From Minisyncoccota bacterium (lineage in GTDB: Bacteria > Patescibacteriota > Minisyncoccia > Phycocordibacterales > UBA918), in the NCBI GenBank assembly GCA_022841645.1, contig JALHRC010000014.1, forward strand, positions 5,124-37,264: a DNA stretch of 32,141 nt, given 5' to 3'. The notes beneath the pieces were generated by a model. The model did no database searches and was not told the origin of the DNA. It saw only the letters and a program-made list of their open reading frames with translations. Position numbers and translations under genes: made by a program. Positions 10,817 to 13,707 of this stretch are shown here, one piece after another (position 1 is the stretch's first letter; every line of letters starts with the position of its first letter).

Positions 10817-11630
10817 CGAACGTCAGTTTGTGAGGGAGGTGTGGCAGTACTATGAGGCGCACGGCCGACATGATTTGCCGTGGCGAGCGACCACTGATCC
10901 GTACCGCACTTTAGTGTCGGAAGTTATGCTACAGCAGACGCAAGTAGAGCGGGTGCTTCCCAAGTACCAGACCTTTCTAAAGCACTTCCCGACGGTGCGA
11001 CGCTTGGCTGCAGCTCCCCTTGGTGAGGTGCTTCTTTTGTGGCAGGGACTTGGGTACAACCGCCGGGCTAAAGCGCTGTATGACGCTGCGTGTACTGTCG
11101 TGCGTGAGCACGGTGGCCGCTTTCCGACGACCGAGGAAGGCCTGCGTGCACTGCCGGGAGTTGGCCTCTACACGGCCGCGGCCGTGCTCGCGTTTGCCCA
11201 TAATGCGCCGGTGGTCTTGATTGAGACAAATATCCGTACCGTGTTCATTCATCATTTCTTTAGTGGTGCGAGCGTAGTCTCCGATGCGCAGTTGCTACCG
11301 CTCATCAAGCGCACGCTGCCGCCGTGTCGGGCAAGAGAGTGGTACGCGGCCCTTATGGACTACGGCAGCTATCTAAAGCAACAGGTAGGCAACAAAAGCC
11401 GTCAGAGTCGTCACTATAAAAAGCAGTCGACCTTTGCAGGGAGTGACCGGCAACTCCGTGGAGCAATTATACGGACCTTCGTAGTCGAGAAGACACCACT
11501 CACGCTCCTTGGTTTGGAGAAAAAACTACCTGAGTTTGACGCGGTGAGGGTGGAGGCGCAGCTCACGGTACTTATGAAAGAGGGTCTCATCGCACGCACG
11601 CGTACCCGCTATCACCTCCCGCGCCCCTAA
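10806..11630 (+). CDS. mutY: MutY-type A/G-specific adenine glycosylase without iron-sulfur cluster
   Basis: The 274-residue protein is a helix-hairpin-helix/GPD glycosylase that would remove adenine mispaired with 8-oxoguanine. Visible: LPWRATTDPYRTLVSEVMLQQTQV with catalytic Glu39, the hairpin LPGVGLYTAAAVLAFA, and catalytic Asp185 in ALMDYGSYL. The four cysteines that normally follow this Asp and bind a [4Fe-4S] cluster are absent; the stretch reads KQQVGNKSRQSRHYKKQSTF. The C-terminal 8-oxoguanine recognition domain is also missing and is replaced by about 60 residues resembling a small winged helix. Cluster-less MutY proteins are known. The ATG at 10806 overlaps the photolyase gene by 11 bases; an earlier in-frame ATG (10731) is deep inside that gene. 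Confidence 0.85.
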   Translation: MTANERQFVREVWQYYEAHGRHDLPWRATTDPYRTLVSEVMLQQTQVERVLPKYQTFLKHFPTVRRLAAAPLGEVLLLWQGLGYNRRAKALYDAACTVVREHGGRFPTTEEGLRALPGVGLYTAAAVLAFAHNAPVVLIETNIRTVFIHHFFSGASVVSDAQLLPLIKRTLPPCRAREWYAALMDYGSYLKQQVGNKSRQSRHYKKQSTFAGSDRQLRGAIIRTFVVEKTPLTLLGLEKKLPEFDAVRVEAQLTVLMKEGLIARTRTRYHLPRP

Positions 11631-11646
11631 AACCTCCTAACACTAA

Positions 11647-11690
11647 GCACCCCCTTCTTACTATCATGCATGATAGTAAGAAGGGGGTGC
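11647..11690. promoter_or_regulatory. Palindrome 1 (44 bp, perfect) of the TrpR-like gene region
   Basis: A perfect 44-base palindrome centred between 11668 and 11669. The inner core is ACTATCATGCATGATAGT; the outer arms are GCACCCCC and its complement. It starts 16 bases after the mutY stop. It shares the core with three further palindromes around the TrpR-like gene. No T tract follows on either strand, so it is not a standard terminator. Confidence 0.8.
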
Positions 11691-11724
11691 TGTGATGACC
11701 GAACCGTTAGTATTGATTACTGCA

Positions 11725-11754
11725 CTTACTACTATCATATATGATAGTAGTAAG
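11725..11754. promoter_or_regulatory. Palindrome 2 (30 bp, perfect)
   Basis: A perfect 30-base palindrome centred between 11739 and 11740, with core ACTATCATATATGATAGT. It lies 5 bases past the stop codon of the TrpR-like gene and 71 bases centre-to-centre from palindrome 1. Confidence 0.8.
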
Positions 11755-11759
11755 GTGAC

Positions 11760-12194
11760 TCAATCGAGGTCGTCGAGTATCAGGTTCCAAAGGAGAAAGT
11801 GACCAGGGTACTTCCGGCGAAGTGTGCGCCAGGAGGTGGGGTCAGAGTCAACTCTGCGTTTACGTGGTTTCTTAGCTTGTTTGGAGCGTTCAATGCGAGT
11901 CTGTGTTGCTGTTTCGTACTCAGGGATTTTTTGTGTAAGCCAGGTTTGAACTAAATTAATAGTGTTAGGGCTCACGTGTAGCTCGGCACGGATGTGAGAC
12001 CAGGAATGTCCTTTGAGTAAACGTTGTGCAATTAAGAGTCGACGACCAATGAGCATTTGTTCGGTTTCAGTGAGGACGCTACGCAGGAATTCTGTCGTAG
12101 TGTGTTTCCCCTGCGAGCGTGACGCCGCTGACCATAATGCTGCAAAGGTTTGTTTGGTGTGCTCAGGATTGGTATGGTAGCGCTGCTGTCTCAT
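11760..12194 (-). CDS. TrpR-like (YerC/YecD-type) DNA-binding regulator
   Basis: The 144-residue protein contains a TrpR-like helical domain: LTETEQMLIGRRLLIAQRLL, then a helix-turn-helix reading WSHIRAELHVSPNTINLVQTWL, as in Trp repressor and the YerC/YecD family. The C-terminal third is very basic (ERSKQAKKPRKRR) and ends in an unassigned segment. The start at 12194 is preferred to an in-frame ATG at 12209, because the latter lies inside palindrome 3. With that start, palindrome 3 ends directly at the start codon, so autoregulation is likely. The ligand is unknown; no tryptophan genes are nearby. It is the only gene between the + strand repair run and the - strand MFS gene. Confidence 0.82.
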   Translation of the reverse strand: MRQQRYHTNPEHTKQTFAALWSAASRSQGKHTTTEFLRSVLTETEQMLIGRRLLIAQRLLKGHSWSHIRAELHVSPNTINLVQTWLTQKIPEYETATQTRIERSKQAKKPRKRRVDSDPTSWRTLRRKYPGHFLLWNLILDDLD

Positions 12195-12219
12195 ATTACT
12201 ATCATACATGATAGTAATA
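12194..12219. promoter_or_regulatory. Palindrome 3 at the start of the TrpR-like gene
   Basis: A 26-base palindrome, perfect except for the two central bases (AC), with core ACTATCAT/ATGATAGT. On the - strand it ends exactly at the preferred ATG (12194), so a bound protein would block transcription or translation start of the TrpR-like gene. Confidence 0.8.
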
Positions 12220-12257
12220 GTAGCTTGTCGGGTGTGTGGGGAACTGAAAATAAAAGT

Positions 12258-12291
12258 ACTCTCTTACTATCATACATAATAGTAGGAGAGT
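12258..12291. promoter_or_regulatory. Palindrome 4 (34 bp, imperfect)
   Basis: A 34-base inverted repeat with two mismatches and a central AC, core ACTATCAT/ATAATAGT and outer arms ACTCTC/GAGAGT. It is 68 bases centre-to-centre from palindrome 3, in the promoter region of the TrpR-like gene. The rest of the gap from 12292 to the MFS gene shows no ORF or RNA that I can support. Confidence 0.75.
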
Positions 12292-12409
12292 GCTACCCGA
12301 CGTGAAAGATATACGAAATTAAAAGCACAATTTTAACTATGTCGAGCATGGGGAGAGAGAGCGTGTACTGATTACCAAATCAGCTGTAAAAAATTAAAAG
12401 TGAGAAGGA

Positions 12410-12449
12410 GGGGAATGACAAAGACCATCGTCGATTCAAGTCCATCCCC
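12410..12449 (-). terminator. Probable terminator of the MFS gene
   Basis: Reading on the - strand, GGGGATGGAC (12449-12440) pairs with GTCATTCCCC (12419-12410) apart from two mismatches; a U-rich stretch (CACTTTTAATTTTTT) follows a few bases later. The distance between stem and U tract is longer than usual. Confidence 0.4.
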
Positions 12450-12468
12450 AGTCATCGTCACGGCCCCC

Positions 12469-13707
12469 CTACGAAGATAGGGCGGCTTGTTCACTTACGC
12501 GGTGTGCAGCTACTGCCGGGATGTCGTACGTCACGTATCCGGCGAAAATAATTCCGGGTACCATGAGGCAGCCGAGGAGAATGAAGAGGAGTGGGAAGGG
12601 AAGAAAGAGGAGGGCAAGGGTACCAGCCGCTGCGCCACAGAGGTTCGCCGCCGGCCGCGTGAGACGGAAAAAGCCGATGAGCGCGGCGTCTTTGCTGTCG
12701 ACTTGTTTGAAAAAATAGCTTTCGCTTCCAACTTCGACGAGACTTGCTCCGACGCGGGTAAGAAACATCACTACCATAAAGCCCACTGTACCAAGGACAG
12801 CAGTAAAACCAATGCTGGCTGAGCTTAGTGCCAGCACCACAAAGCCAATCGCCATCAGGACACGCTCGGCACTAAAGCGGTCAGCGACGATGCCGATCGG
12901 GTATTCACAGATGACGTAAGCAAACAGACCGGCGGCAATGATGCTGCCAATGGTAGACCAGCTGTAGTTAAGTTCGGTCGCGAGATAAAGAGGGAAGAAA
13001 ATCACCACCCAGGAAAAGAAAAATTGCAGAAGAAAATGTGCACCGATGACACCGCGTAAGTGGCGACGACCCTTTAAGCTCATGAGGATGTCTCGTGCAC
13101 GCAGGGCGGGGTAGTCGGGATCGTGAAAACGTCGGAAAGCAAACGCCACAATTGTCATAAAGGCAAGCCCAATAGCAGCCGACAAAAAGTAGACACTGGG
13201 CATATGCTCAAGCGAGTTGTCAGCAATCGCGCCCATGACGAGGGGTGCTAACATCGACGCGATGGCCATGAGAGAGAGGGTAAGGCCGCGGGCGCGACCG
13301 GTGTGCCCATCATGCTCACCAATCCGACTTTCAGAGTAGATATCAATCACCAAATAGAGCGCAGGATTAAGCGCACAGAAAATAACGAAGCTTATGAGTG
13401 GATAGAATTGGAGCCCGAGACAGAGGAGGGCACCGATACAGAGCGCCATAAGGAGCAGGGTAAGGCGTACGTTACCAAAGCGGCGTACAAGTGGCGTGAA
13501 GTAGAGGAAGAGCAGAATGGACAGCGCCGAGCCAATAGCGTAGAGGAGGCTGACGCCACGGGTAGAGGTAAATTGTTCGAGGTAAGTGGAGCTTGAGTAG
13601 GCGGTGAGCAGGGTATGGAAAACAAACACTACCGAAATGAGGTAGATAATGCGAAGGCTCTGCCGGGGTGGCAGCTCGGGGGAGGCGGGGCTGGTGAAGG
13701 TGTCCAT
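12469..13707 (-). CDS. Major facilitator superfamily transporter
   Basis: The 412-residue protein has about twelve hydrophobic helices split by a polar central loop (FRRFHDPDYPALRARDILMSLKGRRHL condensed around residues 190-215), the standard MFS layout of two six-helix halves. The segment YPIGIVADRFSAERVL in the second half is the MFS loop motif between helices 8 and 9. The substrate cannot be inferred. The start ATG at 13707 follows a structured region (see 13708-14143), with no Shine-Dalgarno; a TATTTT box lies about 45 bases upstream. A TAG stop is followed by a probable terminator. Confidence 0.85.
   Translation of the reverse strand: MDTFTSPASPELPPRQSLRIIYLISVVFVFHTLLTAYSSSTYLEQFTSTRGVSLLYAIGSALSILLFLYFTPLVRRFGNVRLTLLLMALCIGALLCLGLQFYPLISFVIFCALNPALYLVIDIYSESRIGEHDGHTGRARGLTLSLMAIASMLAPLVMGAIADNSLEHMPSVYFLSAAIGLAFMTIVAFAFRRFHDPDYPALRARDILMSLKGRRHLRGVIGAHFLLQFFFSWVVIFFPLYLATELNYSWSTIGSIIAAGLFAYVICEYPIGIVADRFSAERVLMAIGFVVLALSSASIGFTAVLGTVGFMVVMFLTRVGASLVEVGSESYFFKQVDSKDAALIGFFRLTRPAANLCGAAAGTLALLFLPFPLLFILLGCLMVPGIIFAGYVTYDIPAVAAHRVSEQAALSS

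Follow-up and report, generated by a model that had tools for sequence, protein, structure and literature searches.

What relation holds between a small gene for a DNA-binding protein and four copies of one palindrome that enclose it? This question is raised by the stretch of 32,141 nucleotides analysed here (the window), in which an open reading frame with a TrpR-type helix-turn-helix is bracketed on both sides by palindromes sharing one core. The initial annotation, made from the letters of the window, had offered two explanations: the palindromes could be binding sites of the protein itself and mediate autoregulation, or they could be the ends of a small mobile cassette. A bracketed gene together with scattered palindromes has so far been reported for REP elements, which are associated with a quite different protein. 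No description of a system consisting of a TrpR-family protein and palindromes was found in searches of the open-access literature. We consider it probable (roughly 0.6) that the gene and its palindromes form a REP/RAYT-like system, in which the role of the partner is taken by a TrpR-family protein with no nuclease domain that could be recognised.

A TrpR-family gene enclosed by four palindromes

All four palindromes are present in the window and they have the core ACTATCATnnATGATAGT in common (Table 1). The centre-to-centre distances within the two pairs are 71 and 68 bp. The limits given to the palindromes in the initial annotation hold for all four sites, except that palindrome 1 extends by one more base on each side; moreover, palindrome 4 has to be described as imperfect. 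Palindrome 1 is located between the convergent mutY-like and TrpR-like genes and has an RNA fold z-score of -9.9, and palindrome 2 follows the stop codon of this latter gene at a distance of 5 bp. At the other end, the first ATG of the gene (12209-12207) falls within palindrome 3, and palindrome 4 is found about 50 bp upstream of this ATG. The sequence ACTATCAT occurs 11 times in the window, as compared to 0.47 occurrences expected from shuffled sequences, none of which reached 11, and 7 of the 11 copies are within the four palindromes. The earlier statement that the window contains no further copy was confirmed with up to three mismatches allowed, but six copies elsewhere in the 1.1-Mb genome had been missed, as had the self-complementary, unconserved arms of the palindromes. 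No Rfam match was obtained for positions 11400-12500. A resemblance of the outer half-sites to the half-site of the Trp operator had been noted as well; it was rejected because the palindromes of relatives have other cores, such as TGATA, CCTCCAT and TTGTATCGA.

Table 1 Features of the TrpR-family locus in the window and of a second palindrome set in the same genome (G000)
Feature	Position	Strand	Description
TrpR-family gene	11760..12209	-	149 aa; TrpR helix-turn-helix and C-terminal motif
Palindrome 1	11646..11691	.	46-bp perfect inverted repeat, core ACTATCATGCATGATAGT
Palindrome 2	11725..11754	.	30-bp perfect inverted repeat
Palindrome 3	12194..12219	.	26-bp inverted repeat, 2-nt centre
Palindrome 4	12258..12291	.	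34-bp imperfect inverted repeat
Second set, L014	G000:C6, centre 3884		core GTTATCAT / GTTATCATATATGATAAC
Second set, L163	G000:C2:66044		core GTTATCAT / GTTATCATATATGATAAC
Second set, L164	G000:C5:45116		core GTTATCAT / GTTATCATATATGATAAC

The helix-turn-helix recognised in the initial annotation was confirmed by a match to the Pfam family Trp_repressor (PF01371) with 30.5 bits, which is above the curated cut-off of 27. The scores for the NCBIfam models TrpR (TIGR01321; 17.2 of 67.25 bits) and YerC/YecD (TIGR02531; 13.7 of 42.2 bits) remained below the cut-offs. Judged by these profile matches, the window protein belongs to the TrpR fold family but is, by NCBIfam, neither TrpR nor YerC/YecD. 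An AlphaFold2 model of the protein is all-helical (pLDDT 83); with Foldseek, this model matched TrpR-like chains best, at weak E-values. When the PDB was searched with a profile, the TrpR-like chains 3kor and 3frw were identified at 1e-10 to 1e-9, and 1tro was also matched. A nuclease or another catalytic domain was recognised neither by Pfam and NCBIfam nor in the AlphaFold2 model and by Foldseek. The recognition helix begins with S80-P-N-T, and the C-terminus carries the motif RRKYPGHFLLW, which in the alignment corresponds to LKKKYPxHFLLF in relatives. A Trp operon repressor would be expected to have a Trp-type operator and trp targets; here, the cores differ and no common pathway is apparent at the sites, the one exception to the absent trp link being a palindrome pair that precedes trpS. 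The genome contains a single gene of this kind. A YerC/HisR-like paralog that lacks the C-terminal motif is encoded beside a metG-like gene (L018, G000:C15:14612).

The palindrome bracket in related genomes

A profile built from 15 homologs was applied to 49 genomes from the GTDB family to which G000 belongs. The separation was clean: 15 loci in 14 genomes scored above 148 bits and everything else below 47 bits, which leaves 35 of the 49 genomes without the gene. All 15 proteins carry (K/R)xYPxHFLLF, or a sequence very similar to it, as their C-terminal motif. A scan of the flanks revealed that most of the 15 genes are bracketed by palindromes with the same core on both sides, and that the core differs from gene to gene. 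A bracket was counted as matched if at least eight half-site bases, read outward from the dyad, are identical on both sides. By this measure, 17 of the 41 homologs examined are bracketed, as compared to 0.55% of 1640 pairs with flanks taken from different homologs. In a second set of GTDB loci, 29 of 43 are bracketed (2.7% by chance); this set covers Kaiserbacteria, Nomurabacteria, Adlerbacteria, Yanofskybacteria, Zambryskibacteria, Moranbacteria, Taylorbacteria, Nealsonbacteria and others, and it shares about seven loci with the first one. All genomes are fragmented metagenome assemblies, in which open reading frames were called mechanically. The palindrome bracket is a trait of the family. 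The search of related genomes for the core beside TrpR-like genes and elsewhere, as proposed with the initial annotation, revealed a conserved bracket, dispersed palindromes and gene-specific cores.

In a second clade of homologs, the C-terminal motif resembles KKYPMYFWPxLLLEEIVKSA, and the genomes encode several paralogs each, with seven matches in G101. Its loci L054-L062 are located in G101, G118, G174, G207, G258, G268, G294 and G410, and matched palindromes surround some of its members only. At another locus (L066, positions 1267-1974, in G098), a homolog is preceded by four and followed by two TGTATCGA...TCGATACA palindromes, six in all.

Recognition helix and palindrome core

The core class was compared with each residue of the recognition helix in the 41 homologs, with half-sites assigned by hand and phylogeny partly controlled. 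Position 3 of the helix, which is N82 in the window protein, shares 1.47 bits of mutual information with the core class. Asp at this position goes along with a TGATA core in 17 of 17 cases and Asn with a TATCAT core in 10 of 12 cases, and small or polar residues are accompanied by CCAT/TCAT or other cores. When every stretch of 12 residues is compared, core similarity is predicted best, given the remainder of the protein, by residues 72-83 (partial r 0.37), which comprise the turn and the beginning of the recognition helix. For the helix window proper, the partial r is 0.17 (partial Mantel p 0.012). That the protein itself binds the palindromes, as had been suggested from the window, is very probable in view of the covariation between core class and the beginning of the recognition helix and of the conservation of the bracket among homologs. 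Members of the TrpR fold family are known to bind 20-bp palindromic sites and to regulate their own genes; for instance, autoregulation has been predicted in 183 genomes for the TrpR-family repressor HisR (PMC9413887). Since palindrome 3 covers the start codon, the autoregulation proposed in the initial annotation is plausible, and this upstream site could cause autorepression.

Dispersed copies with private arms

The 1.1-Mb assembly of the window's genome consists of 56 contigs, and the six additional copies of the core are spread over five other contigs. With neighbouring genes named from reading the open reading frames, one copy each is found in the rpoC-dnaG gap, ahead of leuS, behind an rmuC-like gene and in the vicinity of a ribosomal-protein cluster; the other two form a pair, spaced by 118 bp, in the interval from a histidine-kinase-like gene to trpS (L015, 3965 and 4083, G000:C18). 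Of the core class TATCATnnATGATA, each of the eight carriers has at least three copies (range 3-19 per genome), with 19 in G022, 14 in G035, 13 in G041, 11 in G000 and 10 each in G018 and G043; G022 has two such genes with two cores. The number of TATCATnnATGATA copies is 0 in most genomes without the gene, and 0-1 copies were found with a reversed-pattern control. In a forward test with another core class, GTATGATAT...ATATCATAC, 13 and 6 copies were detected in its two carriers (G034 and G008) and none in eight other genomes. Palindromes also occur in genomes without the gene (G020, G032 and G036). Moreover, the window's genome has a second set of three long palindromes, each with a total length of 30-40 bp (Table 1), and no second TrpR-like gene to go with it. 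The GTTATCAT core is also found at rpmE-prfA in G020. In G018 (L148, L149, L171), the sites often form doublets that are 29 bp apart and part of a larger inverted repeat, CTACCTATCAT...ATGATAGGTAG, which is reminiscent of REPIN doublets.

Some palindromes are located in the coding sequences of murD and murC (L160, 1081 and 1861, in G022; L085, 1527, in G036). The murD palindromes of two species occupy almost identical positions and have different cores. The possibility that the copies within murC, murD and truB are insertions was considered, but the core reads as ordinary protein (TIIYDS, GIIHDT and TIINDS), and length differences point neither way. The short intragenic copies may be due to chance.

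The arms of the palindromes were analysed at 54 sites by recording pairing and base information at each offset from the dyad. At offsets 14-22, pairing across the dyad amounts to 44-81%, as compared to an expected pairing of about 0.3, and the base information is about 0.2 bit or less. Pairing falls to background at offset 23, and arm half-lengths reach up to 32 bases. Beyond the core, the arms are thus different at every site and still self-complementary to about 22 bases from the centre. Each copy therefore amounts to a long hairpin, in which the tip is common to the sites and the stem is private.

Genomic position and rival explanations

The unit of gene and palindromes occurs in some thirty neighbourhoods, which indicates that it has moved, or has been lost and regained, often. 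For instance, the unit lies between rpoC and dnaG in four members of the genus, and a solo palindrome is present in this gap or just past rpoC in G000, G040, G030 and G035. In three of the latter four genomes, the solo palindrome has the genome's own core; the gene of G040 goes with another core. Full units and solo palindromes also alternate at rpmE-prfA, at uvrD-ksgA, beside pfkB and beside ruvB. About three quarters of the solo sites are not shared between carriers. Several are common to species, as is the rpoC-dnaG site, and these shared sites fit old functional sites as well as recurrent insertion.

Among the rivals of a REP/RAYT-like system, an ordinary autoregulator with a small regulon fares best. 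The palindromes would be operators, and the bracket would serve tighter repression or DNA looping. This explanation accounts for the bracket and for the covariation of recognition helix and core, and it agrees with the TrpR-family helix-turn-helix, the palindrome over the start codon, the predicted autoregulation of HisR in the same family (PMC9413887), the own-genome sites upstream of leuS and, as a pair, of trpS, and some shared positions such as rpoC-dnaG. However, it accounts neither for the dispersal nor for the arms or the position of the unit. Solo sites more often follow closely on a stop codon (at most 36 bp in 15 of 32 gaps to 3' ends) than shortly precede a start codon (2 of 22 gaps to 5' ends), and some sites are inside murC and murD. 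Moreover, most of the genes flanking solo sites are not shared between carriers and have no common function, and the targets turn over. A dimer binding site does not require 10-20 bp of unconserved complementary arms. We regard a mere regulon as unlikely.

The mobile cassette of the initial annotation, a self-moving, IS-like unit with the palindromes as its ends and solo palindromes as scars of gene loss, is in keeping with the many neighbourhoods of the unit and with the scattered solo palindromes that occur where full units sit elsewhere. However, neither a transposition event nor an empty site could be demonstrated; in a nucleotide comparison with the nearest relative, G031, the intergenic DNA does not align. 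Furthermore, there is one gene per core and genome instead of multiple identical copies, no nuclease domain was found, and the window protein has no relative in viral contigs or PHROGs. Recombination of the flanking palindromes would also join unlike arms, whereas the arms of solo palindromes match, which disfavours solo palindromes as recombination scars. Such a cassette is improbable. A role as chromosome-organising sites for a nucleoid protein, comparable to parS or matS, would suit palindromic sites that are few, scattered and private and that also occur at the gene of the protein; it is hard to reconcile with a protein that most genomes of the family lack and with site positions that turn over between species, and we give it little credence. 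Finally, the palindromes are hardly intrinsic terminators, nor their arms terminator stems: although they form strong RNA hairpins (z -4 to -10), often just behind stop codons and in some cases with arms rich in A on the leading and in T on the trailing side, the T-rich tail expected from a terminator, in which a U-tract follows a GC-rich stem, accompanies (on either strand) only 11% of the sites versus 5% of the background, the orientation of flanking genes shows no convergent bias, and a conserved core that tracks the recognition helix would be left unexplained.

Comparison with REP/RAYT systems

REP and REPIN sequences go together with the RAYT (TnpA-REP) protein (Nunvar 2010, PMC2817692; PMC8049555). 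As in these systems, a single-copy gene is flanked by its own palindromes, and the same palindromes are dispersed and mostly extragenic, here in low copy number. Also as in REP/RAYT systems, each gene has a private palindrome type, changes keep the palindromicity, and orphan palindromes persist in the absence of the gene. However, the partner is a TrpR-family helix-turn-helix protein (PF01371) and not a Y1/HUH tyrosine transposase; no Y1_Tnp match was found in 4 of the 10 genomes tested (G022, G035, G027 and G030), which include the two richest carriers, G022 and G035. Moreover, the 3-19 copies per genome are far below the number of typical REPs (over a hundred), and the outer arms, unlike those of REPs, lack conservation although they remain self-complementary. 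The protein resembles the TrpR and HisR (YerC/YecD) repressors (PF01371) in its fold, the helix-turn-helix, the palindromic site of about 20 bp and the likely autoregulation. It differs from them in the extra C-terminal KYPxHFLLF motif, the bracketed gene, the scattered sites without a shared pathway and the scores below the NCBIfam cut-offs for TrpR and YerC.

In the REP/RAYT-like system that we favour, a dimeric TrpR-family protein would bind a private palindrome of about 18-22 bp, a step that is strongly supported by the covariation. The gene is bracketed by this palindrome, further copies of which lie over the chromosome, and the copy over the start codon would probably confer autorepression. 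The organisation is that of a REP/RAYT unit with the TrpR-family protein in place of the transposase, and a kinship may extend to the process. The core would be maintained by binding. The outer arms would most simply be made by fold-back synthesis or template switching at the palindrome, and the bound protein perhaps assists in it. Template switching at palindromes is documented to create and repair such stems (PMC8794818), and template switching or quasipalindrome correction, which creates and repairs perfect inverted repeats, would yield unconserved complementary arms (PMC8794818, PMC7202029). In those cases it is a general mutational process, whereas here such a process would have acted repeatedly around one protein-specific core. 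Several observations count against the REP/RAYT-like reading, namely that no recent insertion could be demonstrated, that no nuclease domain was recognised, that some solo sites are shared, that palindromes exist without the gene and that the copy number is low. Furthermore, the orientation of flanking genes does not differ from that of random gaps, and the convergent bias expected from REPs was not found. Tentatively, the loci might instead represent a new class of dispersed-palindrome system that is unrelated to RAYT: a TrpR-family protein would co-evolve with the private palindrome around its gene, and this palindrome would propagate through the chromosome. Binding or protein-stabilised hairpins would induce fold-back synthesis, by which local DNA is used to lengthen every copy to a perfect hairpin. 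We consider this possible, if somewhat doubtful.

Significance

If the REP/RAYT-like reading is true, there is a second, apparently independent protein family with the REP/RAYT architecture, which would indicate that such an architecture can develop around a plain DNA-binding protein. The matched pair of protein and palindrome in each genome, together with the visible exchange of Asn and Asp at helix position 3, provides a data set for the recognition code of the TrpR family. Moreover, the unconserved self-complementary arms represent many independent examples of perfect-palindrome formation in bacteria. Finally, the uncultured Patescibacteria with their very small genomes would gain a regulatory or selfish system that could be tested in a laboratory host.
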